Assembly: GCF_030149425.1 (NCBI RefSeq)
Contig: NZ_JASBRQ010000053.1
Coordinates: 1-64,000 of the forward strand
DNA from: Maricaulis sp.
GTDB taxonomy: Bacteria > Pseudomonadota > Alphaproteobacteria > Caulobacterales > Maricaulaceae
Direction: 5' to 3'
Length of the DNA stretch: 64,000 bases
The notes under the pieces are model-generated. The model ran no database searches. It was not told the DNA's origin and saw only the letters and a list, made by a program, of their open reading frames with translations. Shown one piece after another: positions 46,777-54,928 of the stretch. Every line of letters begins with the position of its first letter. Within the stretch, counting starts at the first letter, position 1. A program made the position numbers and the translations under genes.

Positions 46777-46872
46777 ATGGATGACGCGGCCGGTCCCAGG
46801 CATATTTTCTTCGCTGCAGTGCTTGTGGGCGCTGTGCTGGCTTTGATGGCGGGTGCCTATAACCTCGGCTAA
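46777..46872 (+). CDS. Possible 31-aa single-membrane-span peptide
   Basis: Frame encoding MDDAAGPRHIFFAAVLVGAVLALMAGAYNLG, of which residues ~9-29 are a convincing membrane helix. It begins 26 nt after the lpdA stop on the same strand, so it could be the last gene of that transcript. No strong ribosome site is present (AGCAGGACCAATTC before the ATG) and the peptide is too short for family assignment. Homology across relatives would decide whether it is real. Confidence 0.4.
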   Translation: MDDAAGPRHIFFAAVLVGAVLALMAGAYNLG

Positions 46873-46967: not shown

Positions 46968-47015
46968 ATGCCGATACGTTCCCTGCATCCGATTCCCCGA
47001 GCGTGTGCATCATAA
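46968..47015 (+). CDS. Possible 15-codon leader peptide
   Basis: ATG at 46968 is preceded by an unusually strong AAAGGGGGGAATT ribosome site and opens a 15-codon frame (MPIRSLHPIPRACAS) that stops 38 nt before the lipoprotein gene at 47054. It could be a short regulatory leader or a decoy. Only the ribosome site and position support it. Confidence 0.25.
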   Translation: MPIRSLHPIPRACAS

Positions 47016-47053: not shown

Positions 47054-47719
47054 ATGCATAAGCTGATCTTGGTCGCCACGACCGCACTGGCCGTTTCGGC
47101 CTGTACCTATTCCCACCATGGTTCCGGCGATGATCGCTCGATCGAAGGCGCCGGCCTTGTGGCCTCGCGCAATGTCGATATCGCCGGCGATGCCGAGTTC
47201 GCGGGCATGATTGTGCGCGTCAATGGTGATGTCGGGCGTAACCTGTCCATGGCCGGGGCCACGGTGCGGTCCGATGCCAAGGTCGGCGGTGATCTGGAAG
47301 CGGCGGCCGCACGCTTGCGCTTTACCGGCGAAGTTGATGGGGATGCCGAGCTTGCCGGTGCCTCAATCGATATCGATGCGACCTTCCACAACAACGTCTC
47401 CATGGCCGGTGCCAAGATCGAACTGGACGGCCTTATCGAAGGCGAGCTCGAGATCTTCGGCCATAATGTCGAACTCAAGGGTGATGTCATGGGGCCGGTG
47501 GAGATGATCGGCGAGGGCGATGAAGGCAATGGCAGCCTGGTGCTCTCTGGCCGTTTCATGTCCGGCGGTACCTTCTGCGCCAGCGAGATCGAGATCAAGC
47601 GCAGCGCCGAGTTCAGCGGTGATTTCGTCTTCGCCGCTGATGCAGAGCCGGCCAATCTCCCGGCCAGTGCCGTGTTCGAAGCGCTGGACGGCCGCGAATG
47701 CGACCGTATCGATCTCTAA
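47054..47719 (+). CDS. Exported bactofilin-like beta-solenoid lipoprotein
   Basis: 221 aa. Signal peptide with lipobox VSAC (Cys at about residue 17), so probably a lipoprotein. The mature part is a series of short beta repeats with the recurrent pattern G-D-[AV]-x(4)-[AL]-x-G-A (DIAGDAEFAGMIVRVNGDVG, NLSMAGATVRSDAKVGGDLE, VDGDAELAGASIDIDATF and so on), the same period as the bactofilin/polymer-forming domain. The last ~40 residues are non-repetitive with two Cys (TFCASEIE and RECDRIDL). Bactofilins are normally cytoplasmic; this one is exported. Two similar genes follow at 49717 and 50538. Confidence 0.78.
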   Translation: MHKLILVATTALAVSACTYSHHGSGDDRSIEGAGLVASRNVDIAGDAEFAGMIVRVNGDVGRNLSMAGATVRSDAKVGGDLEAAAARLRFTGEVDGDAELAGASIDIDATFHNNVSMAGAKIELDGLIEGELEIFGHNVELKGDVMGPVEMIGEGDEGNGSLVLSGRFMSGGTFCASEIEIKRSAEFSGDFVFAADAEPANLPASAVFEALDGRECDRIDL

Positions 47720-47737
47720 TCGGCCGAGATCAGGAAC

Positions 47738-47772
47738 AAAAAAGGCCCGGCGCAAACCGCCGGGCCTTTCTC
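47738..47772. terminator. Bidirectional terminator between lipoprotein and acyl-CoA synthetase genes
   Basis: GGCCCGGCG, loop CAAAC, CGCCGGGCC, with AAAAAA on the left and TTT on the right. Nine-bp GC stem with a T-run on each strand, placed between two convergent genes. Confidence 0.9.
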
Positions 47773-47787
47773 GTTTTAGGCTTGGAA

Positions 47788-49449
47788 TTACTGGGCAGGT
47801 TCCGGCTGAGCCGGCGCGGCTGGCGCCGCCATGGCTTCCTCTGCGGTGCGCTGAACCCGTCCATAATCGGTTTTGCCGGTGCCGAGCACCGGGACCTCAT
47901 CGACAACGATGATTTTCTTCGGGATCGCCAGCTCGGTGACGCCATGGTTCTTGGCGAAAGACACGAGGCTGGCCCGGTCAGCGTCTTTCTGTGTGGTCAA
48001 CAAAATGATCTGCTCGCCCTTGCGCTTGTCTGGCAGAGCCGCTGCCGCATGCATGCTGTCCGGCCAGAGCGAGTTGGCGCAGTTTTCAACCACAGCCAAT
48101 GAGACCATTTCCCCGCCCAGCTTGGCGAAGCGTTTGACGCGGCCACGGATCCGCAGGAAGCCATCCTTGTCGATGCTGACGATATCACCCGTGTCGTGCC
48201 AGCCTTCCATCGGCGCTTCCAGCACCAGAGGGGCGGACGGGCGGATATAGCCCTTCATGATGTTGGGTCCGCGGATGTGAAGCTGACCGCCATCATCAAT
48301 ACCGTTGACGCTGACCAGCTTGGCCTGGCAGCCCGGAAGCAGCTGGCCGACCGTACCCGGCTTGTTATTCTCCGGCTGATTGACCGCAAGAACAGGAGCC
48401 GCCTCGGTCAGCCCGTAGCCTTCGACAATCTCAAGACTGAAATTGCGCTTCAGCGCGGTTCGCGTTTCGTCTTTCACGCGCTCAGCGCCACAGACCGCCA
48501 TGCGCAGGGATTTGAGATCTTCCTGATCCGCGGCGCGGGCGTACTGATTGATGAAGGTGTCCGTAGCAAACAGGATAGTGGAACCCGTTTCCGCGACACG
48601 CTTGACGATCGTCTTCGCCTGCAGCGGGGTTGGATGACAAACCGCCGGTATGCCCAGATTAAGCGGCAGCAGGACGCCGCCTGTCAGGCCAAAACAGTGG
48701 AAGGTCGGCATCGGGTTGAAAACCACGTCATCCGGGAAGAGCTGGATATGGTCCCGGACCTGTTCGACATTGGCGAGCAGGTTGGCATGGGACAGCACAA
48801 CGCCTTTCGGCTCGCCTTCGGTGCCCGATGTGAAAAGATAGACTGCGGCGTCATCCGGGGATGGCCAGGCACGGACCGCCCAGGGTGCGACCATGCCGAT
48901 GGCAGCCGCCACCTTGTCCATCGTCGACAGATTCTCGCGCACATCCTCCAGGTAGATCATCTCATGATCGCGCGCGAGCTCGGCTTCCAGGTCGTGTAGC
49001 TCACCCAGCTCGATGAAACGACGAGCGGTCACAATGCGTTTGCACTGGCTTGCTTTACAGGCCGATTTCAATGCCCGGTCACCGGCGGTGAAGTTCAACA
49101 TGGCCGGGACGCGGCCATATGCCGAGATCGCGAAGAAGGAGATGATGGCGCCAACGCCCGTCGGCAGCAGGATGGCTACCGCTTCGCCGGGTTCCGTCCC
49201 TGCTTTCAGGGCGTGGCCGAGCGCATAGGATGCTTTGACCAGGTCATTATAGCTGAGCTCGCGGCCATCAGCGTCGATCGCGGCGATCTTCTTGCCGCCA
49301 TATCGGCCCTTTGAATGCAGCAATGCCTGAAAGACTGATTTACGAATCCGTCCTTCGTTAAAGTTCGCGCCGGTATAGATGGTATCGGCGAGGCCGGCCG
49401 GTTCCGGAGCAGTTTCCGGTGCCGGATCGGCGGCTGTTTGATCAGCCAT
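47788..49449 (-). CDS. AMP-dependent acyl-CoA/acyl-ACP synthetase
   Basis: 553 aa of the ANL superfamily. The phosphate-binding loop is VYLFTSGTEGEPKGVVLSHAN, followed by VEGYGLTEAAPVL, the core WHDTGDIVSIDKDGFLRIRGRVKRFAKLGGEMVSL, and a C-terminal TGKTDYGRVQR with the catalytic Lys. The KLGGEMVS hinge is that of acyl-ACP synthetase/2-acylglycerophosphoethanolamine acyltransferase (Aas-like) proteins rather than acetyl-CoA synthetase. Residues 1-25 are Ala/Pro/Glu rich and not conserved. GGAGGAC precedes the ATG. It may recycle fatty acids from lysophospholipid or lipoprotein turnover. Confidence 0.85.
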   Translation of the reverse strand: MADQTAADPAPETAPEPAGLADTIYTGANFNEGRIRKSVFQALLHSKGRYGGKKIAAIDADGRELSYNDLVKASYALGHALKAGTEPGEAVAILLPTGVGAIISFFAISAYGRVPAMLNFTAGDRALKSACKASQCKRIVTARRFIELGELHDLEAELARDHEMIYLEDVRENLSTMDKVAAAIGMVAPWAVRAWPSPDDAAVYLFTSGTEGEPKGVVLSHANLLANVEQVRDHIQLFPDDVVFNPMPTFHCFGLTGGVLLPLNLGIPAVCHPTPLQAKTIVKRVAETGSTILFATDTFINQYARAADQEDLKSLRMAVCGAERVKDETRTALKRNFSLEIVEGYGLTEAAPVLAVNQPENNKPGTVGQLLPGCQAKLVSVNGIDDGGQLHIRGPNIMKGYIRPSAPLVLEAPMEGWHDTGDIVSIDKDGFLRIRGRVKRFAKLGGEMVSLAVVENCANSLWPDSMHAAAALPDKRKGEQIILLTTQKDADRASLVSFAKNHGVTELAIPKKIIVVDEVPVLGTGKTDYGRVQRTAEEAMAAPAAPAQPEPAQ

Positions 49450-49591
49450 ATATGTCCTCCCACTTGCGCCGATTCGTTGTGGCGCATTGTTTTTCTGCCG
49501 TGGATATTACTCCGCCGGGGCGGGTAGGGAAGTCCTGATACCATTCGCAAGGCGCTGTATCCGCGCGCGATTTCTCGTAAAACAAGAATAA

Positions 49592-49642
49592 TTTATCGAT
49601 AAACAAAAAATCGCTTGATATCGTTTTTCGATAATGTATGGT
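49592..49642 (+). promoter_or_regulatory. AT-rich promoter with TATCGATA-type operator dyads
   Basis: A perfect 12-bp palindrome TTTATCGATAAA (49592-49603) lies upstream of a second dyad TATCG-TTTTT-CGATA (49619-49633). TTGATA (49615-49620) and TATGGT (49637-49642), 16 nt apart, can serve as -35 and -10, so the second dyad sits between the promoter elements. The local AT content contrasts sharply with the rest of the window. It would drive the lipoprotein and membrane bactofilin-like genes at 49717 and 50538. Confidence 0.55.
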
Positions 49643-49716
49643 CCGCATGAACGCTGGGGAGCGTCATAGACCTTGCCGCAAGGGTTGCGGGCGGGGCTGA
49701 TACGGGAGTTTGGGAC

Positions 49717-50484
49717 ATGCGCAAGGCATGGCTTCTGGCAGGCGTCATGACGGCGTCGCTGGCAACATCGGGCTGCGTTGTCGTGGTTGGCGATGATGGT
49801 GACGGCAAGAGCTGGTCTAACCACAGTTACAGCGAAGGATTTCAGGTCCTTGACCGCAATGGCGACTACAGCCGGATCGGTGGGGACATCAATCTTCGCG
49901 GTCGTATCGGCGGCGATCTCAGCCTGATCAGCGGCGATGTTGACGCCGACGAGCTCGAGGTTGGCGGCGATGTCTCTATCGCGGCGGGTGATGTTGATTT
50001 CACCGGCTCAGTCGATGGCGAAGTTTCCATCGCAGGCGGTGATGTGAACTGGCTTGGCTCTGCGGGTGGTGAATTTGCCATCGCGGCCGGTGAGTTGACC
50101 GTTCGCGGTGATATCGGTGGCGAAGCGGCGATGGCCGCAGCCAATATGCATCTCGACGCGGATTTTGCCGACGAGGTCGTTGCCCAGGCGGACGAAATGC
50201 TGGTCGAGGGCCGCATTGCCGGTCCGGTCCGCTTGGTTGCAGCTGACGAAATTCGACGCCGCCGGATGGATGATCCCGATCATGGCCTGATCGAAATTGC
50301 CGCGGATCTTCAGCGCGGCGGTGAGATTTGTGCCCGGACTGTCGTCTTCGAACCGGGTGCGCGACTTGGCGACACGCTGCAGGTCTGGGCGGAAACCGAA
50401 CCGACTTTGCCGTCGAGCATTGATAGCCGTCTGGTCGATTTCGAATATCGCGACGACCGCGACTGCGACACCATTCTCGACTAG
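49717..50484 (+). CDS. Exported bactofilin-like beta-solenoid lipoprotein
   Basis: 255 aa. Signal sequence ends ATSGC at residue ~20, a lipobox-like site lacking the usual Leu at -3. Then come about ten short beta repeats of the type GGDVSIAAGDVDFTGSVDGE, GEFAIAAGELTVRGDIGGE, with alternating GDV/AAG turns, predicting an all-beta solenoid. C-terminal ~60 residues are non-repetitive, with a Cys pair (GEICAR, DRDCDTILD) shared with the protein at 47054. Likely periplasmic and membrane-attached. First gene of a unit with 50538. Confidence 0.78.
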   Translation: MRKAWLLAGVMTASLATSGCVVVVGDDGDGKSWSNHSYSEGFQVLDRNGDYSRIGGDINLRGRIGGDLSLISGDVDADELEVGGDVSIAAGDVDFTGSVDGEVSIAGGDVNWLGSAGGEFAIAAGELTVRGDIGGEAAMAAANMHLDADFADEVVAQADEMLVEGRIAGPVRLVAADEIRRRRMDDPDHGLIEIAADLQRGGEICARTVVFEPGARLGDTLQVWAETEPTLPSSIDSRLVDFEYRDDRDCDTILD

Positions 50485-50537
50485 TCGATATCCACAATAA
50501 GGAACCTGACCGCCGGGGGGCGCAGGGAGTAAAAATC

Positions 50538-51902
50538 ATGGATTTCAAAAAGCTTATCATGGCCGGGGGGCTGGCCTTAGCTGTTCTTACCGGGGCTGCC
50601 CAGGCGCAGATCATCGGCGGCGACGTGGTCGTCGATGGCAGTCGTGACGATGTCATTTTCCTCGGTGGTGAGATGCAGGTCTCCGGCACCGTTGAAGGTG
50701 ATGTGTTCGGCATGGCGGGCGATGCCCGGATTGATGCCAATGTCACCGGCGACGTCCAATTCTTCGGCGGTGACCTGACCCTTGCGGGTACGGTGGCCGG
50801 CGAAGTCGACGCGGCAGCGGGCGATATCAGCATTTCCGCCGATGTCGGAAATGACGTCAACGCGGCGGCCGGCGATGTGACGGTCACCGGTAATGTCTCC
50901 GGCGACCTGAACGCGGCGGGTGGCTCCGTTGATGTGCATGGCTCTGTCAGCGGTGAAACCCATCTTGCCGGCGGCCATGTCCTGCTCGCTCCGGACAGCC
51001 AGTATGCCGGTTCCGTCGAGATTATCGGCGGCCTGATCGAATTTGAGGGCGTTGCCCGCGATCGCGTTGAAATCGAAGCGGAAGAGGTCGTACTGGCCGG
51101 CCGTTTCGAAGGTGATGTCGAAATTCTCGCAGAGCAGGTTCGCATTGCGCCGAGTGCTGTGGTCACCGGCACGTTGCAAATCGAAGGCCCGACCGAGCCG
51201 CTGGTAGAAGCCGGGTCCAGTGTTGCTGTGCTCGACTACACCCAGCGAGACTTTGATTTCGAAAAGGAAAACCTCGACGAGTTCGACGTCGACTTCGATT
51301 TCGATGGCCCGCTCAATTTCGCCATCGGTGTCGGGGAAAACATTCCTGCAGCCTTCCTGGCGACCGCTTTCGTTATCGGTCTCCTGATTGCCCTGATGTC
51401 GCCGAAGGGTCTGCGCGGCATGACGTCGGCCTTCCGTCGCCGTCCGGTTTCTGCGCTCTTCCTTGGTGCCATTGGCATCCCGATGGTCTTCCTGATCATC
51501 CTGGTGGTGATTGTCTTGCTGATGGCGACGGTTATCGGCATCCCGCTGGCGATCCTGCTGCTGGTGATGCTGCCCTTCATCTATATCGGCTTCATGGCGA
51601 TTGGCGGTTTCGCGATCGGGGACCTGATCTTCAACCGCAATTATCCCAATGCCGGTCTCGGCCTGGCCCTGCGTGCGGCGTCGCTGCTGGTGGTCCTAGT
51701 CGCGGTCTATGTGCTCGGCTTTGCACCGGGACTGGGCGTGCTGATCGGTACGATTGTGCTGGCTATCGGTATCGGGTCCTGGCTGTTGTCCTTCGGGCGG
51801 CATCCCGATGGCCGTGACGACCGCCAAGACGAGCCTGCCGAGGCCCCGCGCAAGGATCCCGCACCGGCAGATGACGGCGCGGTTACAGAAAGCGAAGGGT
51901 GA
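50538..51902 (+). CDS. Membrane-anchored exported bactofilin-like protein
   Basis: 454 aa. Signal peptide MDFKKLIMAGGLALAVLTGAAQAQ; residues ~25-230 are beta-solenoid repeats (GGDVVVDG, GGEMQVSGTVEGDVFGMAGDARIDANVTGDV, GDISISADVGNDVNAAAGDVTVTG...). After an acidic linker (FEKENLDEFDVDFDFD) come about four to five membrane helices (about 270-420, for example FLATAFVIGLLIALMSP, MVFLIILVVIVLLMATVIGIPLAILLLVMLPF) and an acidic tail. So the solenoid is periplasmic and the C-terminus is in the inner membrane. GGGAG ribosome site. Presumably functions with the lipoprotein just upstream. Family resembles polymer-forming proteins; not characterised. Confidence 0.78.
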   Translation: MDFKKLIMAGGLALAVLTGAAQAQIIGGDVVVDGSRDDVIFLGGEMQVSGTVEGDVFGMAGDARIDANVTGDVQFFGGDLTLAGTVAGEVDAAAGDISISADVGNDVNAAAGDVTVTGNVSGDLNAAGGSVDVHGSVSGETHLAGGHVLLAPDSQYAGSVEIIGGLIEFEGVARDRVEIEAEEVVLAGRFEGDVEILAEQVRIAPSAVVTGTLQIEGPTEPLVEAGSSVAVLDYTQRDFDFEKENLDEFDVDFDFDGPLNFAIGVGENIPAAFLATAFVIGLLIALMSPKGLRGMTSAFRRRPVSALFLGAIGIPMVFLIILVVIVLLMATVIGIPLAILLLVMLPFIYIGFMAIGGFAIGDLIFNRNYPNAGLGLALRAASLLVVLVAVYVLGFAPGLGVLIGTIVLAIGIGSWLLSFGRHPDGRDDRQDEPAEAPRKDPAPADDGAVTESEG

Positions 51903-51972: not shown

Positions 51973-54408
51973 ATGCGTAAGCTTACCGTTATTGCACTGG
52001 CTGCAGCCGTCGCGACGCTCAATGTCGCGGCGGCTCAGCCTATTCGTCAGACAACAAATGACTGGCGTGATGCGTTTCGCCAGCTTGAGGACGAAGATTG
52101 GCCGACACCGAACCGTGAACGCCGGGCCACCGGCGCTCCCGGGCCGGATTACTGGCAGCAGGACGTCGATTACGACATCGATATCCACCTCAATGAGCGC
52201 ACCAAGGTCCTGACCGGGACTGCGACAGTCACCTACACCAATAACGCGCCGGACGAGCTCGACTTTCTCTGGTTCCTGCTCGATCAAAACCGCTTCCGCG
52301 ATGATTCGATCGCGGTCATGACCGAAACCGTTGGCGGCGGCGGACGGGCGGCTTCGCGCGTTGGCGGATCCATGCCGGAAGGCATGTCAGCCTATTCGGT
52401 GCGTCGCCGCGACCGCCTCGAAAATGACGGTTACGGGTTCAATATTACGGCCGTCACCGATGCCGCCGGGGCCGACATGGACCACACCATTGTCGACACG
52501 CTGATGCGGATCGATCTCGATGACACCCTGCAAACCGGCGACAGCGTAACCTTTACCATTGAGTGGAATTACCGCCTGATCGAGACCCAGGTGGTCGGTG
52601 GCCGGGCCGGTTGGGAATGTTTTGAGGAAACCGGTGATACCGGCGGCGATTGTATCTACCAGATCGCTCAGTGGTTCCCGCGCGCGGCCGTGTTCTCCGA
52701 TTATGAAGGCTGGCACAACAAGGCCTTCCTGGGCCGCGGTGAATTCGGTCTCGAGTTCGGCGATTACAATGTTTCCATCACCGTGCCGCAGGACTTCATC
52801 GTCTCGGCAACGGGTGTGCTGCAGAACCCCGAAGACGTGCTGACGCAGTCCCAGCGTCAACGGCTGGACGAGGCGCGCACCGCTGATGAGCCGGTGTTCA
52901 TCGTAACCCCGTCCGAGGCCCGCGCCAATGAACGCCGCGGAACCCGCTCGGAAGCCACCTGGGAGTTTTTCGCAGAGAACGTCCGCGATTATGCCTGGGC
53001 TGGGTCGCGTAAATTCATCTGGGATGCGGTCGGCGTGGAACAGGACGGTGAGGGCGAGGCGCCCGATCTCGTCATGGCCATGTCTTTCTATCCCAATGAA
53101 AGCGAGCCGCTCTGGTCAAGCTTCTCGACCCGGGCGGTTGAGCACACGCTCGACGTCTATAATTCCTTTGCCTTCCCGTATCCCTATCCCGTGGCGCAAT
53201 CGATCGCCGGGCCGCAGGGCGGGATGGAATACCCGATGATCACCTTCAATGGCGGCACCTATGGCCGGCCGGTTGAGGATGAAGACGGCAATCTGTCCTA
53301 CTCGCTACGCGCCAAGCGGGGCCTGATCGGCGTTATTATCCACGAGATCGGGCATATCTATTTCCCGATGATCGTGAACTCTGATGAGCGCCAATGGACC
53401 TGGATGGATGAGGGGCTGAACTCCTTCCTGCAGTTCGAGGCGGAACGGCTCTGGGAGGAGGATTTCCCGGTCCGCCGTGGTGATCCGCATACGATTACGT
53501 CCTACATGGTCTCGCGTAATCAGATGCCGATCATGACGCAGTCGGATTCCATCCTCCAGTTCGGCCCCAATGCCTACTCCAAGCCGACGATCGCGCTGGT
53601 GATCCTGCGCGAAACCGTCCTCGGTCGCGAATTGTTCGACGAGGCCTTCCGCACCTATGCCCGCCGCTGGCGGTTCAAGCGGCCGACGCCCTATGATTTC
53701 TTCCGCACTATGGAAGAGGTTTCCGGCGTGGATCTGGACTGGTTCTGGCGCGGCTGGTTCTACTCGACCGATCATGTCGATATCTCTATCGACCGGGTGA
53801 TCGAGGGAACGCTGGACACCCAAAACCCGGCAATCGAAAACGCGCTCGACGCGCAGGTCGAGGCCCAACGCGCTGAGAGCCTGACCCAGGTGCGCAATCG
53901 CGAGAACGGTCTTTCGACCTACGCCGATAGCAATCCGGAAGTGATCGAATTCTACTCGCGCACGGATCGCCATGCGGTCACCAATCGCCAAAGCGAGGCC
54001 TATGAGCGGTTCCGCGACGGGCTGGAAGCCTATGAGGAAGAGATCATCGATCGCGGCGATCGCTTCTACTATGTCGACCTGTCCAATCAGGGCGGGGTGG
54101 TGATGCCGGTCATCCTGGAATTCACCTTCGCTAATGGCGAGACCGATCTGGTGCGTATTCCGGCCGAAATCTGGCGCTATAACCCGGTCAATGCGACCTG
54201 GGTCTATCGCACCCAGCGCGAGGTCGTATCTGTCGAGCTGGATCCGCTCTGGGAAACCGCGGATGCGGATCGTACGGACAATTACTATCCGCCGCGGATC
54301 GAGCCGACGCGTCTGGAAATGTACCGCTCGTCGTCCAACTCCTCGACCATGATGGATGACATGGATCGTCGCGTGACCCGTGACGACATCCAGGACCGTC
54401 CGGAATAG
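51973..54408 (+). CDS. Exported M1 family zinc metallopeptidase
   Basis: 811 aa with a signal peptide (MRKLTVIALAAAVATLNVAAAQ). The M1 catalytic set is present: substrate-binding GGMEYPMITF (variant of GAMEN), zinc motif HEIGH at residues 457-461 and the third ligand Glu480 in WTWMDEGLNSF, giving HEXXH-18-E. The N-terminal beta domain contains YDIDIHLNERTKVLTGTATVTYTN, and the C-terminal region is non-catalytic. Likely periplasmic or surface aminopeptidase. The 8-nt gap to the DUF6702 gene suggests one transcript. The ATG at 51973 is chosen for the signal peptide; a longer frame overlaps 50538. Confidence 0.9.
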   Translation: MRKLTVIALAAAVATLNVAAAQPIRQTTNDWRDAFRQLEDEDWPTPNRERRATGAPGPDYWQQDVDYDIDIHLNERTKVLTGTATVTYTNNAPDELDFLWFLLDQNRFRDDSIAVMTETVGGGGRAASRVGGSMPEGMSAYSVRRRDRLENDGYGFNITAVTDAAGADMDHTIVDTLMRIDLDDTLQTGDSVTFTIEWNYRLIETQVVGGRAGWECFEETGDTGGDCIYQIAQWFPRAAVFSDYEGWHNKAFLGRGEFGLEFGDYNVSITVPQDFIVSATGVLQNPEDVLTQSQRQRLDEARTADEPVFIVTPSEARANERRGTRSEATWEFFAENVRDYAWAGSRKFIWDAVGVEQDGEGEAPDLVMAMSFYPNESEPLWSSFSTRAVEHTLDVYNSFAFPYPYPVAQSIAGPQGGMEYPMITFNGGTYGRPVEDEDGNLSYSLRAKRGLIGVIIHEIGHIYFPMIVNSDERQWTWMDEGLNSFLQFEAERLWEEDFPVRRGDPHTITSYMVSRNQMPIMTQSDSILQFGPNAYSKPTIALVILRETVLGRELFDEAFRTYARRWRFKRPTPYDFFRTMEEVSGVDLDWFWRGWFYSTDHVDISIDRVIEGTLDTQNPAIENALDAQVEAQRAESLTQVRNRENGLSTYADSNPEVIEFYSRTDRHAVTNRQSEAYERFRDGLEAYEEEIIDRGDRFYYVDLSNQGGVVMPVILEFTFANGETDLVRIPAEIWRYNPVNATWVYRTQREVVSVELDPLWETADADRTDNYYPPRIEPTRLEMYRSSSNSSTMMDDMDRRVTRDDIQDRPE

Positions 54409-54415
54409 GGCCGCC

Positions 54416-54928
54416 ATGAGTCTGAAAGCCAACATTATGGGCGCATTTATCGCCGGGGTAGTCGTCATGACCGCCCCGGCGTTCGCGCACAAAGTCCACG
54501 CAGGTGCCACCGAGATCAGCCTCAATGCGCGCACCGGCGAGATGGAGATCGTCCATCGCATCTTTGCCGATGATCTTATGGTCGCTATCGGCCGGGACGA
54601 GGCTGATGCGGAGGATGTGTTGCGCGAAGCTGGCGGGCTGGACGCGGTCCGTGATTATGCCCTCGCCAATTTCCGGCTTGGAGACCCGAGCGGGCTTTTG
54701 TACGACCTTGACTATGTCGGGGCGGAGATTGATGGCGAGTTTGCCTGGATCTATTTCGTCTCCGCGGCGCCGCAGGATGAAACGGGGTTTACCGTCGATA
54801 ACGACCTTCTTGCCGATGTCCTCGACGATCAGGTGATGATGACGAATTTCCGCTTCAACTCCCGGGTCCGCACCGCCATGCAGGGCGAGGGGCGGCGCGA
54901 ACCCGTGCGGGTCAGCTTTGCGGACTAG
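54416..54928 (+). CDS. Exported DUF6702 family protein
   Basis: 170 aa, signal peptide ending APAFAH, then HKVHAGATEISLNARTGEMEIVHRIFADDL and further beta strands. This fits the DUF6702 family, which is often encoded next to M1 peptidases, as here. A periplasmic beta-sandwich is likely; no catalytic residues are seen. The stop codon lies in a 22-bp palindrome that also encodes the end of the convergent hydrolase gene, which it overlaps by 4 nt (CTAG). Confidence 0.8.
   Translation: MSLKANIMGAFIAGVVVMTAPAFAHKVHAGATEISLNARTGEMEIVHRIFADDLMVAIGRDEADAEDVLREAGGLDAVRDYALANFRLGDPSGLLYDLDYVGAEIDGEFAWIYFVSAAPQDETGFTVDNDLLADVLDDQVMMTNFRFNSRVRTAMQGEGRREPVRVSFAD

Follow-up and report, generated by a model that had tools for sequence, protein, structure and literature searches.

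A conserved trio of bactofilin-type proteins predicted to face the periplasm in Maricaulis

Introduction

Is the bactofilin fold also put to use within the cell envelope, on the far side of the cytoplasmic membrane? This question is raised by three neighbouring genes, which we call S1, S2 and S3, in a stretch of 64,000 nucleotides from Maricaulis sp. (assembly GCF_030149425.1, contig NZ_JASBRQ010000053.1, positions 1 to 64,000; hereafter the window). A preliminary description of the locus, made by a model from the letters alone, had read the three products as exported bactofilin-like β-solenoid proteins, two of them lipoproteins and the third a multi-span membrane protein; the coordinates, signal-peptide-like N-termini and short β repeats that it reported are all present. 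We favour the reading, with a probability of about one half, that the trio is an extracytoplasmic bactofilin-type module in which an inner-membrane S3 and its cysteine-capped lipoprotein paralogues S1 and S2 constitute an envelope scaffold. The fold and topology predicted for S3 have strong support from model and sequence; filaments, co-assembly and the function of the trio we infer.

S3 combines a bactofilin-type solenoid with a predicted membrane block

S3 is organized as a signal peptide, a solenoid, an acidic linker, five membrane helices and an acidic tail. Its N-terminus is an ordinary signal sequence as judged by hydropathy and pattern, the basis on which all signal peptides and lipoboxes were called here in place of a dedicated predictor. 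The structural model shows a β-solenoid at approximately residues 24–236 and, in the hydrophobic part, five long helices (269–287, 303–329, 334–365, 376–393 and 399–419) and a short one (289–301), which bears out the multi-span C-terminus and acidic tail described earlier. Lysine or arginine occurs in the loop after the first membrane helix in all 44 aligned S3 sequences (mean 3.8), and two short loops predicted to lie outside are free of both residues in the same 44. Five helices together with this positive-inside bias therefore place the S3 solenoid outside and the C-terminus inside, and we consider a periplasmic solenoid, whose location and fold are both predictions, to be well supported, in line with the envelope-side placement originally suggested. 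The alignment comprises 44 of 49 rows; L080 was omitted as distant, L051 for a misplaced start, and L077, L078 and L079 because contig ends truncate them.

By domain content, S3 falls within the bactofilin family of Pfam (PF04519), scoring 37.9 bits against a cut-off of 27.9, and 32 of the 44 S3 sequences match this family at E ≤ 0.01. S1 and S2 lie below the cut-off and are bactofilin-like relatives, not filed as members. The relation to bactofilins proposed beforehand is supported. Among 50 aligned S1/S2 sequences, 35 match PF04519 at E ≤ 0.01, which is an E-value criterion and not the curated cut-off. Searched against solved structures, a joint S1/S2 profile retrieved a bactofilin first, weakly (E 0.023); profiles were required for such matches, a single-sequence search of the PDB with S3 giving nothing at E ≤ 1. 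The S1 model is a β-solenoid (predicted local distance difference test, pLDDT, 91.1; predicted template modelling score, pTM, 0.85) whose β-helix core agrees with solved bactofilins at a root-mean-square deviation (rmsd) of 1.7 Å and 30% identity to bactofilin. The S1 and S3 models are thus both solenoids, as had been anticipated, with S2 assigned by homology only.

Profile comparison and, for S1, structure comparison indicate the same solenoid type in the trio as in the bactofilins (PF04519/IPR007607; Thermus 6ria/6rib and Caulobacter BacA, 2n3d), from which the three proteins differ by their signal peptides, a solenoid of about double length, the five C-terminal transmembrane (TM) helices of S3, and the lipid anchors and cysteine pair of S1 and S2. 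The strands of S1 extend over approximately 190 aa and those of S3 over 213 aa, compared with a canonical bactofilin core of about 110 aa, and S3 departs from both canonical features open to testing, namely the short core and, by prediction, the cytoplasmic location. A link to DUF2807 (PF10988), also raised in the preliminary description, was not borne out, with no match at E ≤ 1 in S1, S2 or S3 and matches at E ≤ 0.01 in two of the 50 S1/S2 sequences; DUF2807, FapA and autotransporter readings were rejected on account of weak or sporadic matches. NCBIfam returned nothing for S1 and S3 and a single chance match for S2 (14.5 bits against a cut-off of 358).

Paralogy of S1 and S2 with the S3 solenoid

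A search of its own genome with S3 as sole query retrieves S2 (E 6e-13) and S1 (E 2e-11). The S1/S2 profile can be aligned with that of S3 over almost the whole length of S1, signal peptide and C-terminal cap included, at 99.9% probability (E 8e-36); the three proteins are related beyond chance. In a midpoint-rooted tree of 137 solenoids (73 S1/S2, 44 S3 and 20 from outside the family, some of these long-branched; the five S3 rows absent from the alignment and the S2 of locus L060 were also left out here), S1/S2 form one branch (support 100/99), and S3 with the outside proteins the other (100/99). Because single-query S1/S2 labels gave noisy results in distant genera, tree placement was used instead: genes on the side of lpd, the gene upstream of S1 that we take, by recall of its sequence, to encode dihydrolipoamide dehydrogenase, form an S1 branch of 39 rows from several genera (100/100), and S2 is the gene adjoining S3. 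The S1/S2 alignment comprises 50 of the 73 rows (36 of 39 from the S1 branch, 14 of 34 from the S2 branch). S1 and S2 would have arisen from the S3 solenoid by duplication within genomes of the Maricaulis family, a direction suggested because S3 is widespread and S1/S2 are seen in one family.

All three genes are under purifying selection. Compared with locus L003 of a Maricaulis metagenome-assembled genome, where S3 is 87% identical, dN/dS is 0.057, 0.110 and 0.087 for S1, S2 and S3, against 0.029 for lpd as yardstick; these ratios are rough because dS is about 0.9–1.15, near saturation.

The same genome encodes, in the region C15:37262-40546, a 174-aa bactofilin that lacks a signal peptide and scores 92.8 bits to PF04519, preceded on contig C15 by a frame resembling what we presume, from its motif, to be an M23-type peptidase. 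Because this separate bactofilin exists, the trio is not a substitute for it.

Lipoprotein signals and an invariant cysteine pair in S1 and S2

The N-termini of S1 and S2 are lipoprotein-type signal sequences by hydropathy and pattern. S1 has the lipobox VSAC with Cys17 as lipid-bearing residue, threonine at position +2 and the C-terminal pair Cys175/Cys216; S2 has TSGC with Cys20, valine at +2 and the pair Cys205/Cys250, so that the lipobox cysteines and shared terminal pair reported earlier are found in both. The 73 S1/S2 sequences are frames with a best-query E ≤ 1e-9, to which the S2 of L060, recovered later, does not belong. Every one has the pair near its C-terminus (spacing 38–47 residues, at most 14 residues from the end) and 60 have a lipobox; the remaining 13 have ordinary-looking signal peptides (A-x-A in nine) and the pair is still present. 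Its retention despite loss of the lipid anchor is therefore most simply read as a structural disulphide, which is expected only outside the cytoplasm.

The residue following the lipid cysteine is Val in 25 sequences, Thr in 15, Ser in 10, Ile in six, Met in two, Gly and Ala in one each, and Asp in none of the 60. The +2 sorting rule for lipoproteins comes from E. coli, and by this analogy only would the outer membrane be the destination of S1 and S2. Two tandem S1-branch genes occur in each of five genomes of genus g8 (loci L063, L065, L073, L077 and L081), one a putative lipoprotein and one without a lipobox, with the cysteine pair in both.

Distribution of the trio

S3 was found in 47 of 119 family genomes; 27 of these carry the full trio, six S1 and S3, seven S2 and S3, and seven S3 alone, and the conservation among relatives that the preliminary description had proposed as a check is thus present. 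With the S1 and S3 models predicted as solenoids and the topology predicting the periplasm, none of the three outcomes that it named as refuting has arisen. The tally combined profile scores with tree placement and left out matches below 60 bits, such as a 160-aa S2-like frame in L051 (E 1e-5); the assemblies of G054, G064 and G113 are fragmented into short contigs, where partners may be missing through assembly gaps, and the match in G027 is weak and distant. Within the genus, 13 of the 14 genomes searched have all three genes, and G099 lacks S1. The S1/S2 profile matches 54 of the 119 genomes, that is, the 47 with S3 (some via S3 itself) and seven others, not taken as members, whose matches are weak (E 2.7e-5 to 7.8e-4); the 72 family genomes without S3 give no match to it better than E 2.7e-5. 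Five genomes of genus g5 (loci L066, L068, L069, L071 and L074) have S3 only, directly downstream of lpd.

At class level the S3 profile matches 126 of 385 genomes, the window's included. The match reaches E ≤ 3.2e-16 in frames of at least 340 aa in 37 of the 384 other genomes, and in 35 of these 37 it extends to profile position 390 or beyond of 413, the region of the last membrane helix; most of the other class-wide matches, weak and in shorter frames, we take for ordinary bactofilins. Twenty outside neighbourhoods of 4.8–18 kb (19 from the 37, plus the best outside match to the S1/S2 profile) each hold one S3-type protein and none holds an S1/S2 relative. In the phylum sample the S1/S2 profile matches 18 of 398 genomes, 17 besides the window's, and 16 of these 17 matches were rescored (leaving out a 9175-aa frame of G211): eight have 6–7 hydrophobic stretches and are S3-like, including one from outside the class (G137), and the cysteine pair occurs in none of the 16. 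Absences in the family S1/S2-profile, class and phylum searches are weakened because scoring covered a subset of the candidates in each genome (4, 7 or 24 out of several tens, for instance).

Judged from these sequence matches, S3 is not a local invention, because such proteins are spread through the Alphaproteobacteria and stand without S1/S2 in all 20 outside loci; the cysteine-pair branch looks confined to this family among the genomes searched. The earlier proposal of an undescribed system is qualified accordingly. Plasmid records gave no match at E 1e-5. Loci L091 and L092 (genomes G508 and G506) have a different architecture, very long frames (about 2,097 aa) in which the solenoid profiles match at several stretches.

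Relation to known systems

Halofilin B (HalB) of Haloferax volcanii is a bactofilin-type protein whose site of action is said to be the outer surface of the cell, and by this analogy exported bactofilin-type proteins are not wholly new, which lowers the novelty of the trio. HalB is archaeal, from cells without an outer membrane, and we set the trio apart from it by description rather than by sequence comparison; we know of no lipoprotein paralogues of HalB. Among S3-type proteins of other Alphaproteobacteria the solenoid and TM architecture is the same, with no S1/S2 relative in the 20 neighbourhoods. A review describes halofilins as archaeal homologues of bactofilins and places halofilin B at negative curvatures in disks (PMC12186497). 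According to a survey of bacterial bactofilin homologues, about 3.2% have predicted N-terminal TM helices and were set aside (PMC12448750); S3-type proteins may already be present, unremarked, within that fraction, because a signal peptide can pass for such a helix. The same survey describes the full-length form of Proteus mirabilis CcmA as an integral membrane bactofilin, like S3, with N-terminal TM segments in contrast to the C-terminal five-helix block of S3 (PMC12448750). Among the matches listed in a search of open-licence papers, nothing was found on an S1–S2–S3 trio.

A possible envelope scaffold and its alternatives

In the arrangement that we favour, S3 is predicted to sit in the inner membrane by its five helices, with a flexible acidic linker that holds out a solenoid of about 12–13 rungs into the periplasm, and S1 and S2 are paralogues of that solenoid that lack the membrane part and carry a lipobox and the invariant C-terminal cysteine pair. 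S3 would cluster or stack via its solenoid along the inner membrane, the S1 and S2 solenoids would dock onto or cap it from the outer-membrane side, and the resulting scaffold could locally fix how far apart or how curved the membranes are, or where envelope machinery is positioned. End-to-end polymerization of the bactofilin type is unlikely for S1, because in the model the first strand (residues 18–22, pLDDT approximately 56–79) lies directly behind the lipid-bearing Cys17 and the opposite, C-terminal end bears a tail with the second cysteine of the pair; docking or capping would therefore fit better. If this reading is true, a matched set of inner-membrane and lipoprotein members in a conserved exported branch would show this solenoid in use within the envelope too, and the genes would be a tractable means of asking how periplasm width and local shape are set in diderm bacteria.

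Several observations weigh against this. S1 has no PF04519 match and S2 reaches 15.0 bits; at E ≤ 0.001 Foldseek matched neither the S1 nor the S3 model to a PDB entry, and it ranked bactofilin 6rib 36th for S1 (E 8.5) and fourth for S3 (E 0.52, probability 0.75). Other β-helices score a higher Z than bactofilin with the S1 model, and a bactofilin is absent among the 50 matches listed by VIA-align for the S3 model. The latter has a pTM of 0.54, so that it does not predict how solenoid and membrane part are placed relative to each other. Nor is lipid anchoring fixed, because 12 of 39 S1-branch and one of 34 S2-branch members lack a lipobox, and the E. coli +2 rule is not proven for the Maricaulis lineage. 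S1 and S2 are dispensable for S3, since S3 stands without them in seven of 47 family genomes and in all 20 outside loci, and S1 is probably a separate transcription unit. Polymerization, binding and localization of the trio are all predictions or inferences from sequence and models.

The main rival, possible if on the unlikely side, is that the duplicates are mere neighbours beside a very stable gene: S1 and S2 would be S3 paralogues with unrelated envelope tasks, for example as binding proteins, kept adjacent by duplication and lpd synteny with no joint machine. The paralogy of the three is clear, S3 is often alone, S1 has its own terminator-like hairpin, an unrelated gene stands between S1 and S2, and the synteny with lpd, seen in 41 of 43 loci, could keep the genes adjacent even if the trio as such were not selected; against this stand the family genomes without S3, in which S1/S2-profile matches are at best weak, and the near-constant trio of the genus.

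Unlikely, in our estimate, is a more ambitious form of the scaffold, in which inner-membrane S3 and outer-membrane S1/S2 would meet in the periplasm as a trans-envelope β-solenoid cytoskeleton and set spacing or curvature, perhaps at the stalk or stalk base, relatives of Maricaulis being stalked. If true, such a trans-envelope structure would employ the bactofilin fold as a periskeleton, across the membrane from its usual place.

We consider it quite unlikely that S3 forms periplasmic bactofilin-like filaments whose growth is stopped by S1 and S2 as end caps, their cysteine-stapled C-terminal ends blocking the C-to-C contact of bactofilins. The invariant pair at precisely that end does set S1 and S2 apart from S3; however, S3 filaments are conjecture, and the C-terminal end of the S3 solenoid enters the membrane linker, which may also hinder tail-to-tail contact.

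That the three are ordinary cytoplasmic bactofilins with mispredicted signals is very improbable: the membership of S3 in the Pfam family would agree with it, but the signal-like N-termini, the positive-inside pattern shared by all 44 S3 sequences, the cysteine pair shared by all 73 S1/S2 sequences and the separate signal-less bactofilin beside the M23-like frame all speak against it. Surface adhesins or autotransporter-type β-helices (DUF2807-like) are barely credible, since the two-partner secretion domains that give the highest Z for the S1 model superpose, in the five top matches, at 3.0–3.6 Å rmsd with 7–13% identity (against the 1.7 Å and 30% of bactofilin), Pfam finds no adhesin domain over cut-off in any of the three, and S3 is by its model an integral-membrane type of protein, and this despite the two DUF2807 matches mentioned above.

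Locus organization and neighbouring genes

Coordinates of the trio and adjoining features are collected in Table 1. The gap between S2 and S3 is 53 bp, and a terminator-like hairpin stands between S1 and the AMP-binding gene; because of the minus-strand gene between S1 and S2, this hairpin and the short S2–S3 gap, the trio is probably two transcription units, S1 alone and an S2–S3 pair, rather than a single operon. Neither the hairpin nor the AMP-binding gene appeared in the preliminary description. Promoter-like sites are at chance level (three found against 1.8 expected), and for S1 the ATG at 47054 is favoured over an upstream GTG at 47003.

Table 1. Features of the S1–S2–S3 locus in the window
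Feature	Position	Strand	Remarks
S1	47054..47719	+	221 aa; putative lipoprotein, β-solenoid by model
Terminator-like hairpin 3' of S1	47741..47769	+	12 pairs, 9 G-C; consensus match only
AMP-binding enzyme gene between S1 and S2	47788..49449	-	553 aa; neighbour, not claimed as part of the mechanism
S2	49717..50484	+	255 aa; putative lipoprotein, solenoid by homology to S1 and S3
S3	50538..51902	+	454 aa; signal peptide, solenoid, acidic linker, membrane helices, acidic tail (predicted)
Peptidase_M1 gene downstream of S3	51973..54408	+	neighbour only

The lpd gene lies upstream, on the same strand and within 5 kb, at the 41 loci mentioned above. A 31-aa hydrophobic open reading frame (ORF) in the lpd–S1 gap (46777–46872) was dropped as a candidate small membrane gene; a hydrophobic small ORF follows lpd in three of 46 loci, the window's included, and all three differ. 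The AMP-binding gene was found at 20 of the 43 tallied family loci and not in the remainder.

By the rule applied, Peptidase_M1 follows S3 directly at 18 of the 43 loci. The window makes a nineteenth; it escapes the rule because its longest frame as listed, beginning at 51754, overlaps with S3. The likely start is the ATG at 51973. A DUF6702 gene comes next (51973–54928 for the two together). At loci L035 and L036 a second M1-type gene stands beside the first. At L044, the locus of G099, an α/β-hydrolase gene lies between lpd and the AMP-binding gene; at other loci this gene usually sits on the far side of lpd.

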